From assembly GCA_013178295.1 (NCBI GenBank), contig JABLWW010000007.1, forward strand, positions 1 to 64,000: 64,000 nt of DNA, written 5' to 3'. The notes below the pieces were generated by a model. The model made no database searches, was not told the DNA's origin, and saw only the letters and a program-made list of their open reading frames with translations. Positions 29,215 through 41,284 of the stretch are shown piece by piece (position 1 is the stretch's first letter; each line of letters starts with the position of its first letter). Source of the DNA: Anaerolineae bacterium. GTDB lineage: Bacteria; Chloroflexota; Anaerolineae; Anaerolineales; Anaerolineaceae. A program made the position numbers and the translations under genes.

Positions 29215-29257
29215 ACTCTGGCAAATACAGCCGCAAAATGCCGTTAGAAATCGCTGG

Positions 29258-29263
29258 TATAAT
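29258..29263 (+). promoter_or_regulatory. Extended -10 element of selD, probably giving a leaderless mRNA
   Basis: TGGTATAAT places the -10 box (29258-29263) only seven bases before the selD ATG, with no ribosome binding site between them. Transcription would begin at or next to the start codon. Confidence 0.65.
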
Positions 29264-29270
29264 TTTACTC

Positions 29271-30332
29271 ATGAGCGAAATGGTTACTTCAGGTAAACAA
29301 ATACGCCTGACAACGCTGTCCAGCTGCGCTGGTTGAGCTTCCAAGCTGAGCGCGGAAGCGCTGGCGCACGTGTTGCAGCCAGTAAAGGACACCTTTCAGG
29401 CTACCCATTATCCAGACCTGCTGGTAGGGCTGGATAGTGCTGATGACGCTGCTGTGTGGCGTCTGGACAACCAGCGCGCCGTTGTATTGACCACCGACTT
29501 TTTCACCCCCGTAGTGGACGATCCATACGATTACGGTAGCATCGCCGCCGCCAACAGCCTCTCAGATATCTACGCGATGGGAGGGAAGCCCTTCCTGGCG
29601 CTCAATATCGCCGCCATGCCCCCTAACCTGCCAGCAGAGATTACCAGCCAAATCATCCGCGGCGGCGCTGAAAAAGCCCGCCAGGCAGGCGTCATCATTG
29701 CTGGTGGGCACACTGTGCAGGATAAAGAGCCCAAATACGGACTGGCAGTGTTAGGATTTGTACACCCGGACCATATCCTTACCAAGGGCGGCGCTAAACC
29801 AGGCGATTTCCTAGCACTAACCAAACCGCTCGGTTTTGGTGTTACCACCACCGCTCTCAAGCGCGAGAAAGCCAGCGACGAAGATATCGCCGAAGTGATA
29901 CGCTGGATGACTGAGCTGAACAACAAAGCCAGCCAAATCGCCGTTGCCTGCGAACTTAAAGCTGCGACTGACATCACCGGATACAGCTTTCTTGGGCACG
30001 CTTGGGAAATGGCACATGCCAGTCGGGTGGGCTTGCGCATTGAATTTGATAAAATTCCTTTCGTGAGTTGCGCCCAAAAATATGCACAGGCATGGACGTT
30101 TCCCGGCGGCGCTTCAGATAACCGTCTGCATTTTAGCCAGCATGTAACCTTTTCTCCAAAGATTGATGAGGCTTCGCAAATGCTTCTGTTCGACCCACAA
30201 ACCAGCGGCGGGCTATTGCTTTCCATACCAGCACAAAAACTGGCAATCTTCCAGAAGCAGGCTGCCACGCTCCAACAACCTGTCTGGATTGTCGGTCAGG
30301 TCATCGAGGGCAACTCCATTCTGGTAGAATGA
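29271..30332 (+). CDS. selD: Selenide, water dikinase, itself a selenoprotein (in-frame UGA)
   Basis: SelD makes selenophosphate from selenide and ATP. The full gene starts at ATG 29271 and reads through a TGA at 29334-29336 as Sec22. The surrounding residues are LTTLSSCAG-Sec-ASKLSAEALAHVL, exactly where the family has its catalytic Cys or Sec. Reading from the next start after the TGA (29370) would lose the catalytic N terminus. The rest is canonical: GLDSADDAAVW, LTTDFFTPVVDDPYDYG, IIAGGHTVQDKEPKYGLAV, DPQTSGGLLLSI. Total length is 353 residues, which is normal for the family. This implies a selenocysteine insertion system (selA, selB, selC) elsewhere in the genome. Confidence 0.95.
29345..29365 (+). 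promoter_or_regulatory. Candidate bacterial SECIS hairpin in selD
   Basis: AGCGC (29349-29353) and GCGCT (29358-29362) form a perfect stem with a GGAA loop, extended by three pairs below with one bulge. It begins 8-12 bases after the UGA, the distance used by known bacterial SECIS elements that recruit SelB. Confidence 0.6.
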
Positions 30333-30369: not shown

Positions 30370-32235
30370 ATGCAGGAACTCTCAGAGCACCTTCAGGGTA
30401 TTCTCAAAACCCTGCCCAGTAAGCCAGGCTGCTACATTATGAAAAACGCCGCTGGCGAAGTCATCTATGTCGGCAAGGCTGTCAACCTACGTAACCGGGT
30501 GCGCTCTTACTTCCATGCCTCTACAGAACTCAACATAAAAACCCTTCAACTTGTTCAGCGGATCGCAGACATTGAGTGGATTATCGTTGGGTCAGAGTTG
30601 GAAGCCCTGATCCTTGAGATGAACCTGATCAAAAAGCACCGCCCGCGTTACAACATTCGCCTCAAGGATGACAAAAGATACCCATATATCAAAGTGCACT
30701 GGGCAATGCCCTATCCTAAAATCACCGTAACCCGTCAGATGGAAAATGACGGCTCGCGCTATTTTGGCCCCTACACCAGCGTCTGGGCTGTTCATCAAAC
30801 GCTGGATGTCTTGCGACGCATTTTCCCCTACCTGACCTGCGATCGCCAGATTACCGGAAAAGATGCTCGCGCCTGTCTATACTACGATATCAAGCTTTGC
30901 TCAGGCCCCTGTATTGGTGCTATTGACCAACTTCGCTATCGGCAGATCATTGATGACTTTTGTCAATTTTTGCAGGGGCATACTGAGCCGATCGTGTCGC
31001 GGTTGCGGCAGGAGATGGAGCAGGCAGCCGAGGAATTGCGTTTTGAGCAAGCCGCTGTCATCCGCGACCGCATTCAGGCAATTGACCGTGTGGTGGAAAA
31101 GCAAAAAGTTATTTCCAGCGAAGAAATGAATTCGGACGTCATCGCCATGGCGCGCAGCAATGGCGAGGCTTGTGTGCAAATCTTTTTTATCCGCAGTGGT
31201 AAACTAGTGGGACGCGAATACTTCATTCTCGAAGGCACCGAACAGGAAGCGGATGGCGAGATCATCACCCACTTCATTACCCAGTTTTACAATCAGGCAA
31301 CCAATGTACCTGAACAACTGCTCCTCCCGCAGGAAATTGAGGAGGCGCGCATCATCCGCGAATGGCTGCGCACAAGACGCAACTGTCAGAAAGTCGAATT
31401 GAGCGTCCCCAGAGAAGGCACCCCCAGCGAGCTTATTCAGATGGCGGCTGAAAACGCCCGCGAAACGCTGCGCGCCCTGCGGGCGCAGTGGGATAGCGAC
31501 ACCAATCGTCAGTCACAGGCGCTGGCTGAACTACAGCAAGCTATGGCATTACCACAGCCGCCCAACCGTATCGAATGTTTTGACATTTCCAACACCCAGG
31601 GCACTGCCGCGGTTGCCAGTATGGTCGTTTTCGAGCAGGGTGTCCCCAGCAAAAAATACTACCGCCGCTTCAACATCCAGACTGTTTGCGGTCCGGATGA
31701 CTTCGCCAGCATGGAAGAAGTCCTCACACGCCGCTTTCGCCGCTGGCAAAGCGCCCAGGAAGCCAGCAAACTGGGCAAACCGCCCGATCCCTCTTTTGCG
31801 CTCCTCCCCGATTTGCTGATTGTAGATGGGGGTAAAGGACAACTTGGGCGCGCCGTTAGTGTGCTTGAACAATTTGGCTTGGGCGATAAGGTTCCTGTCG
31901 CAGGCTTAGCTAAACAGCAGGAAGAGCTCTTCTTGCCAGGCAGAAGCGATCCTCTGGTTCTCCCGCGTCATTCACAGGGGTTATACCTTCTCCAACGCAT
32001 CCGTGATGAAGCCCATCGTTTTGCCATCACCGCACACCGCAATAAAAGGACAAAACTTGGTATGGCATCTCGTCTTGAACAGGTGCCAGGCATCGGACCG
32101 GCACGCCGCCGTGAGCTGCTCCGGCGCTTTGGCTCTATCGAAGGCATACAAAATGCCAGCATAGACCAGCTGATGCAAATCAAAGGGATTACGGAAACAT
32201 TGGCTTATGAGTTAAAACACCTTTTGGAAGATTAG
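30370..32235 (+). CDS. uvrC: Excinuclease ABC subunit C
   Basis: A 621-residue dual-incision nuclease of nucleotide excision repair. The N-terminal GIY-YIG domain is KPGCYIMKNAAGEVIYVGKAVNLRNRV. A UvrB-binding UVR motif lies near EQAAEELRFEQAAVIRDRIQ. The C-terminal RNase H-like domain contains IECFDISNTQGTAAVASMVVFEQG and LLIVDGGKGQLG. A helix-hairpin-helix pair (VPGIGPARRRELLRRFGS...IKGITETLA) ends the protein. It is full length. Confidence 0.97.
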   Translation: MQELSEHLQGILKTLPSKPGCYIMKNAAGEVIYVGKAVNLRNRVRSYFHASTELNIKTLQLVQRIADIEWIIVGSELEALILEMNLIKKHRPRYNIRLKDDKRYPYIKVHWAMPYPKITVTRQMENDGSRYFGPYTSVWAVHQTLDVLRRIFPYLTCDRQITGKDARACLYYDIKLCSGPCIGAIDQLRYRQIIDDFCQFLQGHTEPIVSRLRQEMEQAAEELRFEQAAVIRDRIQAIDRVVEKQKVISSEEMNSDVIAMARSNGEACVQIFFIRSGKLVGREYFILEGTEQEADGEIITHFITQFYNQATNVPEQLLLPQEIEEARIIREWLRTRRNCQKVELSVPREGTPSELIQMAAENARETLRALRAQWDSDTNRQSQALAELQQAMALPQPPNRIECFDISNTQGTAAVASMVVFEQGVPSKKYYRRFNIQTVCGPDDFASMEEVLTRRFRRWQSAQEASKLGKPPDPSFALLPDLLIVDGGKGQLGRAVSVLEQFGLGDKVPVAGLAKQQEELFLPGRSDPLVLPRHSQGLYLLQRIRDEAHRFAITAHRNKRTKLGMASRLEQVPGIGPARRRELLRRFGSIEGIQNASIDQLMQIKGITETLAYELKHLLED

Positions 32236-32356
32236 ATTCTTTTTACATTCGTTACTCAAACGACACCTCCTGGCATAATCCCCCTAATTGCTACCTGTAA
32301 TGTGATTGTCCGTACACAAAATAAATGATACACTATTGACAAACGCGGAGGTTCAA

Positions 32357-32770
32357 ATGAAATCCATAGGTTACATTATCGCTATTATCATTGCCGTTTT
32401 TGCCTGCGTTGGCGGTGCGGCGCTTTCCATTTTTGGCTTTCTGTATATTCTTGGTTCAGGCAGCCAATCTGGCAGCGCCAGCTGGTTGCCAACAGGCATT
32501 CTCCTGCTCATTATTGGCATCATCCTGCTGATTGTGGCCGCCGTGTTGGCATTCCTTATCTTCCGCCGTGCGAAAAAAGACAAAGAAAGCGAAGGCAAAG
32601 TTACCTACAAGGTCGAACTGCCCGGCAGCGTTTCGCTAAGCCAAATCAAATGCCAATCCTGCGGTGGTGTCCTCTCTTCAGATAACATCACCATGGTGGC
32701 TGGTGCGCCGGTCGTCAACTGCCCTTATTGCCACACAACCTACCAGCTCAGCGAAGAACCTAAGTGGTAA
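32357..32770 (+). CDS. Small membrane protein with C-terminal zinc ribbon
   Basis: A 137-residue protein with two hydrophobic helices (about 5-33 and 43-70). A charged stretch follows, then a rubredoxin-like zinc ribbon with Cys99-x-x-Cys102 (CQSCGG) and Cys122-x-x-Cys125 (CPYC). The ATG at 32357 has GCGGAGG seven bases upstream. The stop is 29 bases before the start of the next gene, which suggests one transcript. It may be an anchor or partner of the DUF2207-like protein. No function is known to me. Confidence 0.65.
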   Translation: MKSIGYIIAIIIAVFACVGGAALSIFGFLYILGSGSQSGSASWLPTGILLLIIGIILLIVAAVLAFLIFRRAKKDKESEGKVTYKVELPGSVSLSQIKCQSCGGVLSSDNITMVAGAPVVNCPYCHTTYQLSEEPKW

Positions 32771-32799
32771 AAACCTTCTCCCCCCTGGAAGGAGACCTT

Positions 32800-34515
32800 A
32801 TGAAAAACAAAATCATCAGCTGTATTTTGCTTGCTCTGTTGCTATTCTTCAACTTTAGCGCCGCTTCGGCTCAAACCTACCGCTTTGAGCTGACAAAGTC
32901 AGTAGTCAACTTTTTTGTCAACAGCGACGGCAGCGCCTCTATCGAATATTACCTGACTTTCAAAAATGACCCGGGTGCTTCTCCCCTTGACGCAGTAGAT
33001 ATTGGGTTGCCCAATTCCAGCTACGAAATGGGTAGTATTACCGCAGATATTGACGGGGTGCCCCTCAACAGCATTGAGACCTCTCCTTACGTATCGCCAG
33101 GGATTGCTGTTAATCTCGGCGCGGCTTCCATACCGCCTGGAAAAACTGCCACCGTGCATGTCTTCATTGGGCGGGTTACCCGCATCCTCCACCCCAGCGA
33201 AGAAGAAGAAGCTGAAAGCTACGCCAGCTTTCAGTTTTCGCCTACCTGGTTCGGCTCTGAATATGTGCGCGGCAAAACGGATATGACGGTTACCCTCTTT
33301 CTCCCGGCAGGGATGAATGAAACGGAACCGCGCTATTACCCACCGAAAAACTGGCCTGGATCAGGTGTGCCGGAGGGTGGCTTTGACGAACAGGGGCGCG
33401 TCTTTTACCGCTGGCAATCCAGCGAAGCCAATGGTTCCACCCAATATACTTTCGGCGCAGGGTTTCCGGCGCGTCTCGTTCCACCCGAAACGATCGTTGC
33501 CCCACCTCAAACAGGCCCCTTTGATTTCATCATCAGCGCGCTTAGCCTGGTATTTGAAAATCTGTGCTGTTTTGGCTTTGGCGCTCTTTTTGTGATCCCA
33601 TGGATTTGGGGCATCTATCAAGGCACAATCGGCGCTCAAAGGCGAAAACTAAAATACCTGCCGCCCAAAATCTCCGTAGAAGGACATGGCATCAAACGCG
33701 GTTTGACTGCCGTCGAAGCTGCCATCCTTATGGAACAGCCTATGGATAAAATCATGACCATGATCCTGTTTTCAGTCATCAAAAAAGGCGCTGCTACCGT
33801 TGTCAGCAAAGAGCCGCTCAAGCTTGAAATCGCCAAACCGCTACCCGAAGGGCTGCATAATTACGAAAAGGAATTTCTTGAGGCATTTGAGACTGACCAA
33901 CAAACTGCACAGCGTAGCAAACTTCAGGAAATGATGATCAATCTGGTCAAGAGCGTAACTGAAAAGATGAAAGGCTTTAGCCGCAAAGAGACGGTTGAAT
34001 ACTATAAAAGCATCACGGAAAAAGCCTGGCAGTACGTCCAAGCCGCTGATACACCCGAGGTCAAGACGCAAAAATATGACGAGGTTATGGACTGGACAAT
34101 GTTGGACAAAGAGTACAGCGGGCGCACACGCGAGACTTTTGGAAGCGGCCCAGTGTACGTCCCAATGTGGTGGGGGCGCTACGACCCGGTCTTTCGTTCC
34201 TCCTCTTTCGGTAGCGGCCAAGCCACCGCTACGGCTGGACCTTCTGCAGGAGGGCGTCCCTCAGCCGGACAAACCTTCTCAATGCCCAGCCTGCCCGGTT
34301 CCGATTTTGCCGCTTCGGTCATTAACAGCACACAGACTTTCTCTGCGGGTGTGTTAGGCAACCTTGCCGCGTTCACTGGAGGGGTTACCAACAAAACCAA
34401 CCCTATCCCGGTGAGCAAATCTTCGGGATACCGCGGCGGTGGCGGCGGGCGCAGCTGCGCCTGTGCCTGTGCCTGTGCCGGTTGCGCCTGCGCTTGCGCT
34501 GGCGGTGGCAGATAG
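32800..34515 (+). CDS. DUF2207-like membrane protein with a Cys-Ala repeat tail (candidate modified substrate)
   Basis: A 571-residue protein. The signal peptide is about residues 1-25 (SCILLALLLFFNFSAASAQ). An extracytoplasmic beta-rich domain follows to about 235. One strong membrane helix lies near 240-272, then a cytoplasmic part with helical segments and a Ser/Gly-rich linker. The end is unusual: after GGGGGRS the last 19 residues are CACACACAGCACACAGGGR, with seven Cys alternating with Ala. By topology this tail is cytoplasmic. The next three genes encode radical SAM-type proteins and a methyltransferase, so I infer the tail is their substrate. The DUF2207 assignment is by resemblance of architecture. 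GGAAGGAG precedes the ATG. Confidence 0.75.
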   Translation: MKNKIISCILLALLLFFNFSAASAQTYRFELTKSVVNFFVNSDGSASIEYYLTFKNDPGASPLDAVDIGLPNSSYEMGSITADIDGVPLNSIETSPYVSPGIAVNLGAASIPPGKTATVHVFIGRVTRILHPSEEEEAESYASFQFSPTWFGSEYVRGKTDMTVTLFLPAGMNETEPRYYPPKNWPGSGVPEGGFDEQGRVFYRWQSSEANGSTQYTFGAGFPARLVPPETIVAPPQTGPFDFIISALSLVFENLCCFGFGALFVIPWIWGIYQGTIGAQRRKLKYLPPKISVEGHGIKRGLTAVEAAILMEQPMDKIMTMILFSVIKKGAATVVSKEPLKLEIAKPLPEGLHNYEKEFLEAFETDQQTAQRSKLQEMMINLVKSVTEKMKGFSRKETVEYYKSITEKAWQYVQAADTPEVKTQKYDEVMDWTMLDKEYSGRTRETFGSGPVYVPMWWGRYDPVFRSSSFGSGQATATAGPSAGGRPSAGQTFSMPSLPGSDFAASVINSTQTFSAGVLGNLAAFTGGVTNKTNPIPVSKSSGYRGGGGGRSCACACACAGCACACAGGGR

Positions 34516-34536
34516 TTATTCCAAAAAATCAGCCAC

Positions 34537-35907
34537 ATGGGAACCAGCTTTCTCAAACGCGTTTTTTACACCCCTCCGCCGCCACCAGCAGCGGGTCTCT
34601 ACCACTACCAACTCAACATCAATGGCGGCAAGAGCCGCGTTCACCTGCGCATTGAGGCTGATGGATACGGGCTTCTGATCATCAATGCCAACCACATCTT
34701 CCATCTTAACCCTACAGCGGCTTACACCGCATATCTCCACTTGCAACATCTGCCCGCCTCCCACATTGTCAACGCGATCAGGCGCTACTATCAAGTCTCA
34801 GCACAACAAGCGCGTCAGCATTTGGAGGCATTTCTTCCACAACTTGAATCCATCCTTGACCCCAATGGACCCTGTCCAGTGTGCGATCTCGACCTGGAAA
34901 CGCTTGCCCCCTTCTCGGCAAATCCTTCAGCGCCTTACCGCATGGATTTGGCAATCACCTACCGCTGCAACAATAATTGCGCCCATTGCTACAACGCCCG
35001 CCCGCGCAATGGAGAAGAGCTAAGCACAGCCAAATGGAAAAACATTCTGGACCGTCTCTGGGATTTAAGCATCCCCCACATTGTTTTCACCGGCGGAGAA
35101 CCCACGTTGCGCCCAGACCTGCCAGAACTTATTACCCACGCTGAACAATTAGGGCAAATTACCGGCATCAACACCAATGGGCGTATGCTGAAACAACCAG
35201 CCTATGTGCAAAAACTTGTCGAAGCGGGGCTTGATCATGTACAAATCACGCTTGAATCCCATAACCCCGCCATTCACGATCACATGGTGGCTGCGCCCGG
35301 CGCATGGGAAGACACGGTAAAAGGCATCCAAAATGCCCTATCCAACCGCCTGTTTGTGATGACCAACACGACCCTTCTGCAGGAAAACAGCCGCTATCTC
35401 GCCGAAACGCTGCACTTTTTGGCTGATCTGGGTGTCCCTACAGTTGGATTGAATGCTCTGATATACGCTGGGCAGGGAGCAAACGTTGGAACAGGGCTAC
35501 CTGAAAGTCAATTGCCACCACTGCTCAACCTGGCGCGCCGCATCACTGAAGAAAACCATCAAAAACTTATCTGGTATACCCCAACCCAGTACTGCCATTT
35601 TGACCCTATTCAGATGGAACTCGGTGTAAAAGGCTGCACCGCCGCTCTCTATAACATGTGCATCGAGCCAGACGGCAGTGTCATCCCCTGCCAGTCCTAT
35701 TACCAGTCGCTCGGGAAGATCCTTGACCAAGATTGGGAATCCATTTGGAATCATGAACTTGCCCGCGCTTTACGTCAGCGCAGCAATCTCCCGGTAGATT
35801 GTCAACTGTGTGCCTATGTGAAGGAATGCGGCGGTGGCTGTCCGCTGGCGCGCCAGAACGCAACCTATCCTGTTCCTATCCCCATCCACCCTCATTTTGC
35901 CAAATAA
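34537..35907 (+). CDS. Radical SAM/SPASM enzyme with N-terminal PqqD-like recognition domain
   Basis: A 456-residue protein. Residues about 20-108 resemble the PqqD/RRE peptide-binding fold (IEADGYGLLIINANHIFHLN, then TAAYTAYLHLQHLPASHIV). A C-P-V-C pair lies at 113-116. The radical SAM core starts with Cys144-x3-Cys148-x2-Cys151 (TYRCNNNCAHCY) and includes FTGGEPTLRPDL. The C terminus is a SPASM domain with seven Cys at 367, 375, 385, 422, 425, 431 and 435, which would hold auxiliary clusters. Such enzymes crosslink or otherwise modify Cys-rich peptides. Its gene lies 21 bases after the Cys-tail protein. The chemistry is unknown. Confidence 0.85.
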   Translation: MGTSFLKRVFYTPPPPPAAGLYHYQLNINGGKSRVHLRIEADGYGLLIINANHIFHLNPTAAYTAYLHLQHLPASHIVNAIRRYYQVSAQQARQHLEAFLPQLESILDPNGPCPVCDLDLETLAPFSANPSAPYRMDLAITYRCNNNCAHCYNARPRNGEELSTAKWKNILDRLWDLSIPHIVFTGGEPTLRPDLPELITHAEQLGQITGINTNGRMLKQPAYVQKLVEAGLDHVQITLESHNPAIHDHMVAAPGAWEDTVKGIQNALSNRLFVMTNTTLLQENSRYLAETLHFLADLGVPTVGLNALIYAGQGANVGTGLPESQLPPLLNLARRITEENHQKLIWYTPTQYCHFDPIQMELGVKGCTAALYNMCIEPDGSVIPCQSYYQSLGKILDQDWESIWNHELARALRQRSNLPVDCQLCAYVKECGGGCPLARQNATYPVPIPIHPHFAK

Positions 35908-35922
35908 AGAGGAAGGTGCAAC

Positions 35923-37071
35923 ATGAACCTGATCGAAAAACTAAGGCAATTTCTGACCCCCGTTCACCCACTGCCCCCTGGTATGTTTCACTACCAGTCG
36001 CCGCCAGACTCACCCCGTCCTTACCGCCTGCATCTGCGCCTGGAGCCTGATGGTCAGGGGGTACTCATTGTCAATGCTAGTACTGTACTTCACCTGAACC
36101 AGACCGCGGCAGAGTATGCATATCACCTGATCAAACAGACACCCGACGAAGATGTGGCAAAAAGCATGGTAAAACGCTACCGCGTGCGCAAGGAACAGGC
36201 TCTCAATGATTACCATGACCTGACGGACCGTCTCAACTCGCTCATCGAAACACCCGACCTTGACCCCGAAACCTTTTTGGGCATCGAACGCCACGAGCTG
36301 TATGACACCCAGCTATCAGCACCCTACCGCCTGGACTGCGCCCTCACCTACAAGGTGCCAGACAGTACAGCGCACCCTCTCGCTCCTATGGATCGCGTCA
36401 AGCGCGAACTGCTGACAGAGGAATGGAAAACCATTCTGGAAAAAGCCTGGCAGGCAGGTATTCCCCACATCATTTTCACCGGCGGTGAACCGACATTGCG
36501 TCCCGACCTGCCGGAACTTATCGCCCACGCCGAGCAGCTTGGGCAGGTAACCGGTCTCTTAACAGACGGCTTACGCCTGACAGAACCCAAATACCTGCAT
36601 CAGTTGCTGCAAGAAGGGCTGGATCATGCAATGCTTCTGCTTGACCCCTCGAATGAGCAATCTTGGGAAGCGCTGCGTGACCTGCTGGCGGAAGATATCC
36701 ACACGACCGTGCATCTTACCATCACCCAAGCCATCACCCCCAGCTTGCCCAAACTGTTAGATCGCATGTCACAAATGGGAGCGACGCATCTTTCGCTTAG
36801 CGCGGAAACCCCTGCCCTCAAAGACGACCTCAAAGCAGCCAGCCAGGCAGCCGCCGAGCGTTTCCTCACACTTGTCTCAGACCTGCCTGTGCCGTACTCC
36901 CGCTTCAACCCAGTCACAATAGAAGAGGAAGAAGAGACACTCCCTGATGGCAGCGGAAAAGCCTGGTTGTATGTTGAGCCGGATGGGGACGTGCTGCCCG
37001 CTCAGGGCGCCTATGAACCACTGGGCAACCTGCTAAACGATAGCTGGGAGAAGATCTGGCAGAAAAAATGA
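35923..37071 (+). CDS. Cysteine-less radical SAM paralogue (probable pseudoenzyme) with PqqD-like domain
   Basis: A 382-residue protein clearly related to the preceding gene. It shares the N-terminal VLIVNASTVLHLNQTAAEYA block and the identical FTGGEPTLRPDLPELI. All three cluster cysteines are replaced: TYKVPDSTAHPL stands where the partner has TYRCNNNCAHCY (Val145, Thr149, Pro152). The SPASM region is cut short and its Cys are gone (YVEPDGDVLPAQGAY). One Cys remains in the whole protein. It cannot bind the 4Fe-4S cluster in the usual way, so I infer a recognition or scaffold subunit. GAGGAAGG precedes the ATG. Confidence 0.85.
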   Translation: MNLIEKLRQFLTPVHPLPPGMFHYQSPPDSPRPYRLHLRLEPDGQGVLIVNASTVLHLNQTAAEYAYHLIKQTPDEDVAKSMVKRYRVRKEQALNDYHDLTDRLNSLIETPDLDPETFLGIERHELYDTQLSAPYRLDCALTYKVPDSTAHPLAPMDRVKRELLTEEWKTILEKAWQAGIPHIIFTGGEPTLRPDLPELIAHAEQLGQVTGLLTDGLRLTEPKYLHQLLQEGLDHAMLLLDPSNEQSWEALRDLLAEDIHTTVHLTITQAITPSLPKLLDRMSQMGATHLSLSAETPALKDDLKAASQAAAERFLTLVSDLPVPYSRFNPVTIEEEEETLPDGSGKAWLYVEPDGDVLPAQGAYEPLGNLLNDSWEKIWQKK

Positions 37072-37823
37072 CGCTCAATCCGCAGGAATGGCATGAGCGC
37101 TACAGCTTACAGGCAACCTGGACCAGCAATCTTCGGCGTCATCTGCTCCCCAAGTTCAAACCAGAACATCGCCAGCGTATATTGGAGGTGGGGTGTGGCA
37201 GCGGCGCAGTGCTGTCAGACATCATATCCCTGACATCCAAAAGTCAGATATGTGGCCTGGATATTGACCTGTCTGTGCTCAAACTGGCAAAGATTTACTG
37301 CTCCGGTGCAGCATTTACCTGCGGCAACGCACTGCACCTGCCTTATCCTTCAAACAGCTTTGATTTATGCTACACGCATTTCTTTCTGCTATGGGTGAAT
37401 GCACCTCTGGCTGCGCTGGAGGAAATGTGCCGCGTGACTCGGCATGATGGTTATGTCGTCGCTTTCGCCGAACCGGACTATGGCGGTCGTATAGATTATC
37501 CTCCCAGCCTTGAGGAAATGGGAAGATTACAGCGCCAAGCACTGCTTGCTCAAGGCGCCAACCCCGACATAGGACGTCAACTTGCCGGTTTGTTTCATAA
37601 AGCCGGTCTCAAAGATATTCACTATGGCATATTAAGCGGGCAGTGGAGCAAACCGCCCGCGCCTGAGGAGCGCGCCTCCGAATGGAAATTTCTTCAACAT
37701 GACCTCAAAGGTCTGCTCTCCCCCGAAAGGCTGAAGGAACTGCATACCCAAGAGACGCTTGCCTGGCAGCATGGCGAACGCGTCCTCTTTGTACCCACAT
37801 TTTACGCCTGGGGGCAAAAATAA
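37068..37823 (+). CDS. Class I SAM-dependent methyltransferase
   Basis: A 251-residue Rossmann-fold methyltransferase. Motif I is ILEVGCGSGAVLSDI, followed by GLDIDLSVL (motif II acidic residue), then AFTCGNALHLPYPSNSFDLCY and a late EEMCRVTRHDGYVVAFAEPDYGG. The ATG overlaps the previous stop (ATGA), so it is translationally coupled to the radical SAM paralogue. It probably acts in the same pathway, on the same substrate or on a cofactor. The substrate cannot be read from sequence. Confidence 0.85.
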   Translation: MTLNPQEWHERYSLQATWTSNLRRHLLPKFKPEHRQRILEVGCGSGAVLSDIISLTSKSQICGLDIDLSVLKLAKIYCSGAAFTCGNALHLPYPSNSFDLCYTHFFLLWVNAPLAALEEMCRVTRHDGYVVAFAEPDYGGRIDYPPSLEEMGRLQRQALLAQGANPDIGRQLAGLFHKAGLKDIHYGILSGQWSKPPAPEERASEWKFLQHDLKGLLSPERLKELHTQETLAWQHGERVLFVPTFYAWGQK

Positions 37824-37839
37824 ACACAACGCCAAATAT

Positions 37840-37867
37840 TTGCAAAATCGAAGAACTGCGGTATAAT
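37840..37867 (+). promoter_or_regulatory. Promoter of tRNA-Pro
   Basis: TTGCAA (37840-37845), a 16-base spacer, and TATAAT (37862-37867), ten bases before the tRNA 5' end. Confidence 0.7.
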
Positions 37868-37877
37868 TGACTTTATT

Positions 37878-37956
<79 letters not shown>

Positions 37957-37983
37957 TAGACTACATACATACCTAAAGTCCAC

Positions 37984-38046
37984 AAGCAAGCGGTCTCTGG
38001 TTGTCATTTCTCCAGGAGAAACACATGACCAGAGACCTCTTGCTTT
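37984..38046. repeat. Long nested inverted repeat between tRNA-Pro and the phage remnant
   Basis: AAGCAAG and GGTCTCTGGT (37984-38001) pair with ACCAGAGACC and CTTGCTTT (38028-38046) around an inner TTTCTCC/GGAGAAA pair. It may terminate the leftward phage genes or the tRNA transcript. Part of it also forms the left copy of a flanking repeat (37985-38030, compare 41335-41377). Confidence 0.65.
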
Positions 38047-38057
38047 CTCAATAGCGG

Positions 38058-38567
38058 CTACCGTTTCGTCAGCACATACGTCCCTTGATTGGTGACAGCC
38101 ACAAGCAAGATCGCCCGTGCCACTTGGCGGTTCTCGTCTATCTGCTTTGCTTTGCCCCCCAGCCGTCTGCCCGTTCTTACTGAGTATGTGCCTGCGATCT
38201 GCTTAATCCGCACCCATTCATAGAGCGGCTGCCCCGGCTCGGTAATCGAAAGCGGCGGCGTGTGCGGCTTTGTCCCATATTCCACTGCCTGCGCGTATGG
38301 TAGCCCGCGCCCAGCGCCAACTTCTACGGATATTGCCTCTTTGGTTACCTGCACCTCGCTGGAAGACACGCTTCCCCGCAAATCGCCGGTAGCCACGCTG
38401 TCGTTATCGGTCAGGTTCTGCTTAATTTGATCTTCCAGCAATTTGCCGGCTTGTGCCATTGCATCGCGAATGGGAAAATAAACATCCTCTCGCAAATCAC
38501 CGCTTTGCTCAATTAATTCTATAATTTTCTCCAAGCCCTCAATTACCAAATCTTTTTTGGTTGACAT
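38058..38567 (-). CDS. HK97 gp10-like phage head-tail/tail protein
   Basis: A 169-residue protein. SVEVGAGRGLPYAQAVEYGTKPHTPPLS is the typical gp10 block (Y-A-x-x-V-E-x-G-T-x-P-H-x-P-P). An N-terminal helix (IRDAMAQAGKLLEDQIKQNL) precedes it. The family acts as a tail-completion or head-tail joining protein. It ends in ARAILLVAVTNQGTYVLTKR and may be slightly altered at the C terminus. It is the last gene of the phage fragment. Confidence 0.7.
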   Translation of the reverse strand: MSTKKDLVIEGLEKIIELIEQSGDLREDVYFPIRDAMAQAGKLLEDQIKQNLTDNDSVATGDLRGSVSSSEVQVTKEAISVEVGAGRGLPYAQAVEYGTKPHTPPLSITEPGQPLYEWVRIKQIAGTYSVRTGRRLGGKAKQIDENRQVARAILLVAVTNQGTYVLTKR

Positions 38568-38599
38568 ATTGAAATTGCCTCTTATCTATGCTAAAATAA

Positions 38600-38766
38600 C
38601 ATTGCGCTTGGGGTGTAGTCGCCCAGAGCACGCCTTGAGAAGACCGGGATGGTGGGCGCTCCGGCAAGCGTAACGATAAGGTAAAAACTCCGGTGGTGTA
38701 ATTCACGCAGGAAAGCATACCCGCAAGGGAGGTGTAACCCTAGCGTAAGGTTACCCGGAGTTTTTA
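38600..38766 (+). ncRNA. Structured RNA candidate between phage genes (HEARO/omega-RNA-like?)
   Basis: The 196-base gap between two leftward phage genes is GC-rich and strongly structured on the + strand. AAAAACTCCGG (38683-38693) pairs with CCGGAGTTTTT (38755-38765). It encloses CCC-GCAA-GGG and a GTAACC/GGTTAC hairpin. A 5' part has AGACCGGG, GCTCCGGCAAGC and GATAAGG, which recalls, from memory, omega/HEARO RNAs of IscB-IsrB elements. No nuclease gene is beside it. A plain terminator with flanking repeats is the simpler alternative. Confidence 0.4.
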
Positions 38767-39999
38767 TTTTTGCGTTGTTAAATACGATGTCAGCAAAAAA
38801 GGATTCTCGTCCATCTTAACAACTACCTTTAGATAAAAATTTCTCCCACTTGGTGACTTCCGTCTTAAGTCCAAATAGTAATCTCGCAACTCACCACGAT
38901 CTTTGAAAAAAGTTGGAGATAGTAAAGCCTGTTCAATATTTTCAATAAATCCTTTTACTTCTGGATGTCCAAACTGAGCATGGCGCAGGCGCTCACCAGT
39001 CACCCGTACACCTCCAATTTCAGTATAAGTCTGTATATCCGTAACTTCTTCAATGCTATTTCTCCGGTTGTCCCTCAGCGGATGATCCGCTGGTAGATAC
39101 TTCACCTGCTCCAGCGTCACCGGCGCAACCGCACAGCGGCAATGCGGATGTCGCGGCGGCAATCCGTCCCCAAACTTCGGATCGAGATAAAACGGCTCAC
39201 CCAGTCGCACCGTCTTGTTATGCAATTCCCTGCACTTCGGGCAAGCACCTGTCTGCCCGTCTAGCCAGCGCATTCCGCGCACCACGCCGCTTTCCTGATA
39301 GCCTAACTTCGCACCCTGTGCATGCGCACGGATTACCTCTGTGCGAGCAATCCGCGTCGCCCGCCACTCCGGGAAAATGGTCTGCTCCGCATCATTCCGC
39401 AGGTCGGCAATTTCATCTCGAATCTGATACATTGTCTTTCCCTCGCTCAAACCGCCGGTAACAATCTGCGCGATGCCCGTCTGCACATCCGGCAAGATAC
39501 CCGTGACCAGCTTGCTCGCGTTCTCCCGCGCCCATGCCAGTGCCACCGGTTGGATGTAATCCCAAGAGAGTTTCACTTGCAATTGACGTCCCGCTGTCTG
39601 CGCTCCCGCTTGCAAAGCGTTCAATAAAACGGAAGTCAAAATCTCAGCCAGCCTCTCGCTCCACATCCGCCACCACACCTGATCGTTCAACCGCGCCAAA
39701 ATAAACCCCGGCAGCGGTTCATCCTTCGTCATCTTCTCAACATCCGTCAGGTCTTCGAGAAATTCAGCAAACCAGCGCATCAATGCCTGACGCAGCTCTT
39801 CTTCAGCCCGCTCCAGTGCGCTCTGCACCCGGTTCGCCGCATATTCGGGATGATACGGCTCGACCTGTTTCTCCAACTCATGGGTAACGAAAGGGCTGCG
39901 CTTTCCCGACCTCCCGCGCGGGAAAAAGGCACTTCTGCAAACCGCCGTTAAGAAAAGCGTCGAACACTTCAGCGGCTTCATCCGCCGTCCGGCAAACAT
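38764..39999 (-). CDS. Phage MuF/SPP1 gp7-like head protein fused to a PBECR-type nuclease toxin domain
   Basis: A 411-residue protein. The middle holds the MuF head-morphogenesis domain (RIARTEVIRAHAQGAKLGYQESG, then GACPKCRELHN and HPHCRCAVAPV, with a Cys/His metal site). The last 70 residues (about 341-411) change character: AQFGHPEVKGFIENIEQALLSP, then YLKVVVKMDENPFLLTSYLTTQK. This resembles the phage barnase-EndoU-colicin-RelE (PBECR) nuclease domains often fused to MuF. The start is uncertain. ATG 39999 has GAGG upstream but makes the gene overlap portal by 122 bases. Confidence 0.75.
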   Translation of the reverse strand: MFAGRRMKPLKCSTLFLTAVCRSAFFPRGRSGKRSPFVTHELEKQVEPYHPEYAANRVQSALERAEEELRQALMRWFAEFLEDLTDVEKMTKDEPLPGFILARLNDQVWWRMWSERLAEILTSVLLNALQAGAQTAGRQLQVKLSWDYIQPVALAWARENASKLVTGILPDVQTGIAQIVTGGLSEGKTMYQIRDEIADLRNDAEQTIFPEWRATRIARTEVIRAHAQGAKLGYQESGVVRGMRWLDGQTGACPKCRELHNKTVRLGEPFYLDPKFGDGLPPRHPHCRCAVAPVTLEQVKYLPADHPLRDNRRNSIEEVTDIQTYTEIGGVRVTGERLRHAQFGHPEVKGFIENIEQALLSPTFFKDRGELRDYYLDLRRKSPSGRNFYLKVVVKMDENPFLLTSYLTTQK

Positions 40000-41284
40000 T
40001 CAGCCTCGCCCGAACCTCATTCTGCAAATCCAGCGGTAGAACCTCACTCACGAACTGCTCACGCGTCTTCCCCTTGAACAACGCCACCGCATTCTGACGC
40101 CAGCGGTGCAGCTCGTACTTTGCCGCTCGCTCAAACAAAGATGAATACTGCGCAGGCAGCCCGACCATCGGCGTACTCAACGCTCCTCCCCGAAACTCCA
40201 TCGGCACGCCCAGCCGCTCCTGCACATACGCCGGGCTGTATACCCCCATCGAGAGATATACCTGGTCAATCTGCGCCCGCCTCAATTCATCCTCCGGCGG
40301 CTCCAGCCCGATCCATTTGAATTCCAAATCCGCACGTTTGAAATAATCCCGGATAATCCTATCGAACAATGCCTTGAGATACCCTGTGATTGGGCCAATC
40401 ATTGAGCGGTACTGTGCGTTCTCCATCCCCTGCACATAACCAGACCCGCCCAGACCGGCAGACGGCACAAGTCCAAACTCTGCCGGGTTATTCCCAAACG
40501 CCCAGCAGATCACCTGCATCAGCCACTTATCTACTTCGATCTTATCTGCATCCCCCTGCTGCGGCTGGAAGATTGACTGCGCGCCGTTGCCAGGTACGAA
40601 CAGGATTTTGCTTGCCCGGTGAATATCCCCCTTTGCCAGAGCTTCAAAGTAATCCTGGAAGACGCTCAGCTGTTCCGTTGTCCACTCTGGCGAGACGCTC
40701 ACCAGCACGCCCGGAATGTTTCCCTCCGTAAACCATCCCAAACGCACGGCGTCATGGTGGATCGCTGTATTGATTGCCATCAATGCCCACTCGATTGGGC
40801 TTTCCCCGTATGGCGTATGCGACTTAGCATTGAGCGGCGCATAAATCAGCCGATCCGCCGCGTAATGCGTCACTGGCGCCCCGTATAGCACCTGTAAATA
40901 TGCCGGCTGCGGCGGTCGTGGAATGCGTCCGCGCAAATCCAGCAATGGACGGATCGTTGCCCCATCTACCAGATCAAGAGACACCAGCCGGCCATCCTGC
41001 ATATCTGGGTAGATGGTTACTGCATCAATCGTCAACAGCGTTTCCAGCAACTGATTTACCCATGAATCAAAATCATTTATTCCGTCCGGTTGCTCGAAAA
41101 AGCGCACCACCGGCTCGGTAACCACCTGATAACCATCCACCCCGTCGCCTTTGGAAACAATATCCCATTCCAGCCCGCGCACCGTGCGCTTGATCAACTC
41201 GATATTCAAGCGTATCTCTTTACTCGACTGCGCCAGCGCCCGCAACATTGAAAACGGCAGCACGCCAAAACCGGCACGCGGCAC
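39878..41284 (-). pseudogene. Phage portal protein, 5'-truncated
   Basis: A 468-residue frame from a GTG. Blocks such as MLRALAQSSKEIRLNIELIKRTVRGLEWDI, YGESPIEWALMAINTAIHHD and WAFGNNPAEFGLVPSAGLGGSGY are those of tailed-phage portal proteins, which form the DNA entry ring. The frame stays open upstream of the GTG and reads ESNLITVPRAGFG, a family-like segment. It therefore lost its normal start at a junction near 41310-41340. The C terminus overlaps the MuF frame by 122 bases. Probably not expressed from its own signal. Confidence 0.75.

Follow-up and report, generated by a model that had tools for sequence, protein, structure and literature searches.

In a window of 64,000 nucleotides from an Anaerolineae bacterium (GCA_013178295.1, contig JABLWW010000007.1; the start of contig 19 of a genome of 3.95 Mb), five adjacent genes, A to E (Table 1), encode among others a membrane protein, B, that ends in an alternating Cys-Ala tail, and next to it a radical S-adenosylmethionine (SAM) enzyme, C. 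The tail is nearly invariant, is coupled to C in separate lineages and differs in type according to the clade of the enzyme, and C has the predicted fold of known peptide-modifying enzymes. We propose, with a probability of about 75%, that C modifies the cytoplasmic tail of B in place and that B stays a resident membrane protein; the binding of B by C, the modification and its chemistry are steps that we infer. A preliminary description of the same DNA had suggested that this tail is the substrate of the adjacent enzyme, and both the co-occurrence and the agreement of tail type with enzyme clade support that suggestion.

The tail was sought with a fixed codon pattern, CACACAGGG, which is blind to gene content. 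Because the reversed pattern gave no match in (partly overlapping) sets of 61, 298, 18 and 200 genomes, the tail exceeds chance, and its origin as a chance repeat was dropped; a check on mobile or viral origin gave four matches to the tail pattern in a viral collection. Among 61 relatives, including the genome of the window itself, C (sought at E<=1e-30) was found in 49 and the tail in 47, once per genome. All 47 tail genomes have C, and no tail was found in the 12 relatives without C. Two relatives have C and no tail: G041, whose contig stops inside B, and G049, whose enzyme is a distant one (2.9e-32). At the level of the class, the tail was present in 39 of 298 genomes and C (E<=1e-100) in 43, covering all 39; when B without its tail served as the query (E<=1e-15), the same 39 genomes and no other were obtained. 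Three of the four class genomes with C only (G066, G186 and G215) have C at a contig end, and the fourth, G065, is considered below. Fisher p-values for the co-occurrence of tail and enzyme (5e-11, 1e-44 and 6e-18), uncorrected for phylogeny, are descriptive only, because related genomes are not independent.

The same coupling was found in lineages other than Chloroflexota. Sixteen of 200 Lachnospiraceae genomes carry the enzyme (threshold E<=1e-40, all <=1.2e-134), and a tail gene adjoins it in every one of them; 13 of these tails have the exact pattern and three are the variant CACACACASSGRAGC, with SSGR in place of GGGR. The other 184 genomes had no exact-pattern tail, variant tails not having been sought there. 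The body of B as query detected 17 Lachnospiraceae genomes, namely the same 16 plus G450, an enzyme-less genome whose distant B-like protein (24% identity) is without any tail. In a methanogen order the enzyme (E<=1e-130) occurs in 24 of 147 genomes, with a CACACACACACAGGGR tail gene just upstream in all 24; weak enzyme matches of about 1e-33 (in G572, and a second one in G582) are accompanied by no tail.

A GTDB-wide tail scan took in 80 of 118 stretches and is a lower bound, not a census. Seventy-five of the 80 loci are credible, and five (L122, L123, L134, L144 and L164) were left out, since the match does not end a plausible protein. An enzyme-type frame was present in 60 of the 75, as a same-strand neighbour within 300 bp in 58: 53 have the cluster motif, five are fragments cut by the end (L140, L143, L146, L166 and L167) and two have a cluster-less paralogue only. 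L178 and L191 show a weaker enzyme fragment at a contig end, giving seven fragments in total. For the remaining 13 loci, whole genomes were searched, and the enzyme lay no more than about 3.5 kb from the tail on its contig in 10, on another contig in two and was absent in one. An enzyme or its fragment thus accompanies 72 of the credible loci listed, a cluster-less paralogue only accompanies two, and one has none. The preliminary description had named tails commonly lacking the enzyme as an observation that would refute its proposal; this was not seen, as one of the 75 listed loci is enzyme-less and C is present with 47 of 47 tails in relatives and 39 of 39 in the class. Archaeal carriers in the scan include Heimdallarchaeota, Hodarchaeota, Sigynarchaeota, Bathyarchaeota, Thermoproteota, Thermoplasmatota and Methanocella; bacterial carriers include Lachnospiraceae, Oscillospiraceae, Acholeplasmatales, Aminicenantes, Zixiibacteriota, Krumholzibacteriia, Pirellulales and Armatimonadetes. 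Gemmiger formicilis ATCC 27749 also has the tail, and its enzyme gene lies on that contig at a distance of about 1 kb. Three loci (L238, L126 and L129) hold two tail proteins and one intact enzyme each.

This distribution bears on the explanation that the cysteines are lipidated, or serve as a sorting or anchoring signal for other machinery, and that the enzyme is linked to them by co-inheritance. Sorting tails are in general form short, fixed and C-terminal, with Gly and Arg, and the tail of B looks like them in these respects. However, one and the same enzyme family accompanies the tail in both domains, Bacteria and Archaea, and does so in two unlinked pairs (G158 and G362) as well; beyond tail protein and enzyme, no gene is common to most loci in each of the three groups surveyed below, so we regard this explanation as extremely improbable.

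The 47 tail proteins of the relatives end in five different strings of 19 residues, 41 of the 47 being identical, and all 47 DNAs are distinct. The 41 identical tails, which belong to loci found via C, are encoded by 41 different DNAs with a mean pairwise difference of 11.0 of 57 nt, and 19 of their 20 variable sites are at the third codon position and one at the first. Selection therefore acts on the protein and not on the DNA, and a DNA-level repeat was dropped as the origin of the tail. When 43 B proteins of loci that had been located by means of C, independently of the tail pattern, were aligned, mean identity to B of the window was 0.95 in the tail and 0.32–0.62 in six other stretches; the linker ahead of the tail diverges, and the tail itself stays the same. 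Another alignment covers 34 B proteins of Bacteria and Archaea at a mean column identity of 27%, and 12 of its 14 invariant columns fall within the tail. Since the tail pattern had served to select the 33 relatives in it, nine of these invariant tail columns are fixed by construction, and we rely on the 43-protein alignment instead. Among 11 distinct order-level tails, Ala follows 78 of 78 Cys, and Ala is the commonest residue preceding Cys in all tail groups. The tails occur on large membrane proteins; short tail frames, e.g., L112 and L171, resemble broken genes.

The type of the tail follows the clade of the enzyme. Enzyme matches occur in 77 class genomes, 34 of which, beyond the 43 mentioned above, have weaker matches only. 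When six weaker-match loci were read, five (L234, L235, L236, L237 and L239) had a B-like membrane protein with a CHSAC repeat, in place of the Cys-Ala type, beside a sister enzyme. In an enzyme tree of 101 chosen rows, built by a quick method with Shimodaira–Hasegawa-like approximate likelihood ratio test (SH-aLRT) support only, the six sister-clade rows form one branch at 100, and 22 Firmicutes-type rows form another at 100.

These data can be set against the explanation that the tail stays unmodified and binds metal or a cluster through its thiolates, the target of C lying elsewhere in B or outside it. The CxCxC alternation suits thiolate–metal clusters, the tail is predicted to be disordered, and zinc-ribbon-like motifs are present in A and in some Firmicutes tail proteins. 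Yet no part of B is more conserved than the tail in loci found through C, its type tracks the enzyme clade, the nearly fixed Ala is not required by metal binding alone, and the B-like protein of the enzyme-less G450 lacks the tail; we consider this explanation unlikely.

Structural comparison agrees with a peptide-modifying role for C. The predicted model of C (predicted local distance difference test (pLDDT) 87.9, predicted template modelling score (pTM) 0.87) has as its six best matches in the PDB SkfB, SuiB and the sactipeptide enzyme 5why, which we take to be CteB. Pfam assigns PqqD (1.3e-5), Radical_SAM (1.2e-28) and SPASM (8.5e-9) to C, and the CX3CX2C motif is present in 49 of 49 aligned C orthologues. 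The 25 best NCBIfam families for C (NirJ2, AhbD, PqqE, GeoRSP, mycofactocin and others) are all under cut-off, the top one with 137 of 500 bits, and relatives likewise reach no family above cut-off; assignment of C to a named NCBIfam maturase was dropped, as all scores are far under the curated cut-offs. The nearest named enzymes are from Chloroflexota, including Ornatilinea apprima (Anaerolineaceae), a cultured organism whose cassette is at L155, and a plasmid collection gave no match to C at E<=1e-30.

The tail of B is predicted to lie in the cytosol. The model of B (mean pLDDT 83.5, pTM 0.46) suggests a signal peptide, a beta-rich ectodomain (residues 29–223), a long transmembrane helix (240–281), a cytosolic domain (about 300–460) and the disordered tail. 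Each of 22 tail proteins from 21 loci has a signal-like segment and a second hydrophobic segment, and positive charges are more numerous after than before the second segment in 16 of the 22, which places the tail in the cytosol on balance. DUF2207 proteins share a layout of signal peptide, outside domain, transmembrane segment and Gly-rich C-terminal stretch. B had been called DUF2207-like, and it is similar in all four elements to the family (PF09972), to which S. mutans SMU.243 (PMC10457818) belongs; the profile of the family, in contrast, does not match B. Pfam gave no family for B at E<=0.1, a PF09972 search of the whole genome gave no match, and one Firmicutes tail protein reached 0.0051, under cut-off; the resemblance is thus architectural only, and membership of B in DUF2207 was dropped. 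NCBIfam matches of B are at E 0.08, far under cut-off, and a PDB profile search with an alignment of B had no match at E<=0.01; the ectodomain is weakly similar to the beta-domains of ribophorin I and M1 aminopeptidase. An additional open frame of 900 residues in G318 (L247) contains the N-terminal domain of B and has no Cys-Ala tail; judged by eye, the C-terminal end of this frame resembles a formylglycine-generating-enzyme domain.

Gene neighbourhoods were surveyed in 42 order-level Chloroflexota, 31 Firmicutes and 17 archaeal loci (frames of at least 90 residues; blastp 1e-8). The genes common to most loci in all three groups are only those for the tail protein B and the enzyme C. A, a conserved upstream neighbour, is found in 32 of the 42 order-level loci; E is found in 33 of these and in 8 of the 17 archaeal loci and is not among the recurring Firmicutes genes, and the methyltransferase E and the pseudo-enzyme D are not universal. 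An ABC-type (ATP-binding cassette) ATPase recurs in 5 of the 31 Firmicutes loci. Two flanking genes, by eye of DNA ligase and rRNA-methyltransferase type, recur in 20 and 18 of the Chloroflexota loci and probably reflect shared gene order. The order A-B-C-D-E holds in most loci of the relatives, with insertions, splits or cut-off genes elsewhere. A conserved protein of about 340 residues lies between C and D in L061 (7655–8689), L063 (1313–2356) and L117 (4213–5229), and genes are inserted between C and D also in L058.

The survey also bears on whether B is an outsized membrane-bound precursor of a ribosomally synthesized and post-translationally modified peptide (RiPP), from which the modified tail is cut off and released. 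C has the RiPP recognition element (RRE), radical SAM and SPASM domains of sactipeptide and ranthipeptide maturation systems, and the repetitive Cys core at the C-terminus and the GGG(R) after it speak for such a precursor. Such systems are further marked by a small leader-and-core precursor and by a release protease or exporter, and neither was recognised here. Of five small ATG frames with at least four Cys at 32200–38000 of the window, none has a regular Cys repeat, which confirms the earlier statement that there is no separate small precursor gene. No protease-like gene, judged by eye, recurs in the 42, 31 and 17 loci, and by the same judgement no gene for release, protease or exporter, is shared by most of the surveyed loci. 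Moreover, the core is predicted to face the cytosol, and there is a single tail per genome in all 47 tail-positive relatives. We judge release of a peptide to be very unlikely.

The mechanism that we favour, modification of the tail in place, would have a core of two genes, for the tail protein and its maturase, widened to five in the window. B would sit in the membrane with its beta-domain outside, and its cytosolic part would finish with a flexible Gly/Ser linker and then the alternating Cys/Ala run; the RRE domain of C would hold B, and the radical SAM and SPASM clusters would rebuild the run. The likeliest chemistry would be a ladder of Cys-to-Ala thioether crosslinks of the sactionine or ranthi type, each link removing about 2 Da. 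The Ala that follows all 78 Cys of the distinct order-level tails, and the seven Cys with seven Ala in the tail of the window, fit one-to-one Cys-Ala thioethers, and we put this chemistry forward tentatively, at somewhat less than even odds. B would be neither cleaved nor exported, and the modified tail would stay on it, with a function that may be redox, metal-related or structural. D would be a catalytically inactive copy of C that probably binds or scaffolds the repetitive substrate, and either B or the product of C may be a methylation target of E; A may join B at the membrane. In its widest form, the proposal is that the enzyme makes a rod, polythioether or metal-bearing, out of the whole tail and that a membrane protein carries it permanently in Bacteria and Archaea (Asgard, Bathyarchaeota and methanogens), not as a natural product, with clades matched to tail types and pseudo-enzyme partners that arose perhaps twice; we give this form, too, somewhat less than even odds.

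Several observations weigh against modification of the tail by C. The tail modification itself stays an inferred step, a thiolate-rich tail could bind metal unmodified, and co-inheritance of linked genes alone could account for the coupling of B and C. Few pairs are firmly known to be unlinked (G158 and G362), and others, on different contigs, may be assembly breaks. In G065 (85% complete), C lies well inside a 108-kb contig with no tail, and no B in the 4.6 kb upstream; in G158, of the same family, B is unlinked from C. A credible tail, L186 in G363, belongs to a metagenome-assembled genome whose assembly of 1.7 Mb gave no enzyme match at E<=1e-60. In L118 and L181 the stretch examined contains a cluster-less paralogue as the sole enzyme-type frame, and L233, the sixth of the sister-clade loci, shows no CHSA tail. 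In tails other than the order-level ones, the residue after Cys may be Val or, in rare cases, Phe or Thr. The charge rule for the second hydrophobic segment is reversed in 4 of the 22 tail proteins and tied in 2. Finally, Firmicutes enzymes are without the last SPASM cysteines (C-terminal CGGGCP), so that the auxiliary cluster content may differ there.

Compared with known systems, C shares the layout and fold of RRE, radical SAM and SPASM domains with the maturases of sactipeptides and SCIFF (six cysteines in forty-five) peptides (SkfB, 6efn; CteB, 5why; AlbA), and in both cases a Cys-rich substrate, putative for C, is encoded next door. The substrates of these maturases are small leader-bearing peptides, whereas the proposed target of C is the end of a large membrane protein. 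SuiB (5v1q, 5v1s and 5v1t) matches the model of C over nearly the whole length, but the crosslink that it forms is of the C-C type and lies within a small peptide. TvgB is a radical SAM enzyme that forms C-C bonds on Val in a short precursor peptide with TVGG repeats, and is encoded with a peptidase and transporters (PMC9062424); it is similar to the proposed C in acting repeatedly on a short repeated motif and differs in that its target is a short peptide and not the Cys-Ala core of B. No Pfam or NCBIfam model is above cut-off for B or the tail proteins, and the enzyme matches general domains only. Full-text literature searches, from whose coverage subscription journals were mostly absent, gave no description of the tail or of a DUF2207/radical SAM pair. 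The chemistry is probably of a known kind, and the new element would be its target, a resident membrane-protein tail across two domains of life. If the proposal is true, RRE/radical SAM peptide chemistry reaches beyond small peptide products and also shapes a conserved structural element of membrane proteins, in lineages as far apart as Firmicutes and Asgard archaea. The prediction, a mass shift from one tail and one enzyme, is sharp and would cost little to test.

Table 1. Features of the cassette, numbered from the first letter of the window.
Feature	Position	Strand	Description
A	32357..32770	+	137 residues; small membrane protein with C-terminal zinc-ribbon-like CQSC...CPYC
B	32800..34515	+	571 residues; tail-bearing membrane protein, ends GGGGGRSCACACACAGCACACAGGGR
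Cys-Ala tail CACACACAGCACACAGGGR	34456..34512	+	B residues 553–571; proposed modification site
C	34537..35907	+	456 residues; RRE (PqqD-like), radical SAM and SPASM; proposed tail maturase
RRE/PqqD-like winged-helix domain of C	34594..34857	+	residues 20–107; PF05402 match at 47–104 and structure model
CNNNCAHC of C	34966..34989	+	[4Fe-4S] cluster motif CX3CX2C
D	35923..37071	+	382 residues; pseudo-radical SAM paralogue without cluster cysteines; TGGEPT kept
E	37068..37823	+	251 residues; SAM methyltransferase (Methyltransf_11)

The five genes of the cassette lie on the same strand at 32357–37823, and the short spacing previously described was reproduced together with the coordinates: gaps of 29, 21 and 15 bases, and then a 4-base overlap of D and E. 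The zinc ribbon of A was recognised by eye, its Pfam matches being weak (E 0.02–0.03, under cut-off), and E matches Methyltransf_11 at 4.4e-18. D matches Radical_SAM at 1e-12, with PqqD (0.0014) and SPASM (0.016) both under cut-off. It had been called a cysteine-less paralogue, which holds for the CX3CX2C motif and not literally, since one Cys remains. Among D proteins, CX3CX2C is found in 0 of 41 and TGGE[PA]T in 35 of 41. TIGR04347, labelled a pseudo-SAM/SPASM protein, is like D a pseudo-type radical SAM relative by that label, but D scores 45.9 bits against its cut-off of 525. In the tree of enzyme rows, cluster-less paralogues fall into two separate groups, D and L118/L157/L238/L073/L080, which suggests more than one origin of the dead partner or else a long-branch effect. 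L243 in G250, a 97%-complete genome, has a D orthologue, and C, B and the tail were not found there, which argues against a role for D only with C.

Outside the cassette, the stretch 37878–41284 holds a tRNA-Pro gene, 54 bases downstream of the cassette, and, within about 100 bases after it, minus-strand phage head genes (HK97-gp10-like, Mu F-like and portal), possibly of a prophage or remnant integrated at tRNA-Pro. A gene at 29220–30332 encodes a selenide water dikinase-like SelD with AIRS domains and has an in-frame TGA at the expected active-site Cys/Sec position; the motif CAGUASK, with TGA read as U, is presumably that of the SelD active site, and this SelD is probably itself a selenoprotein.

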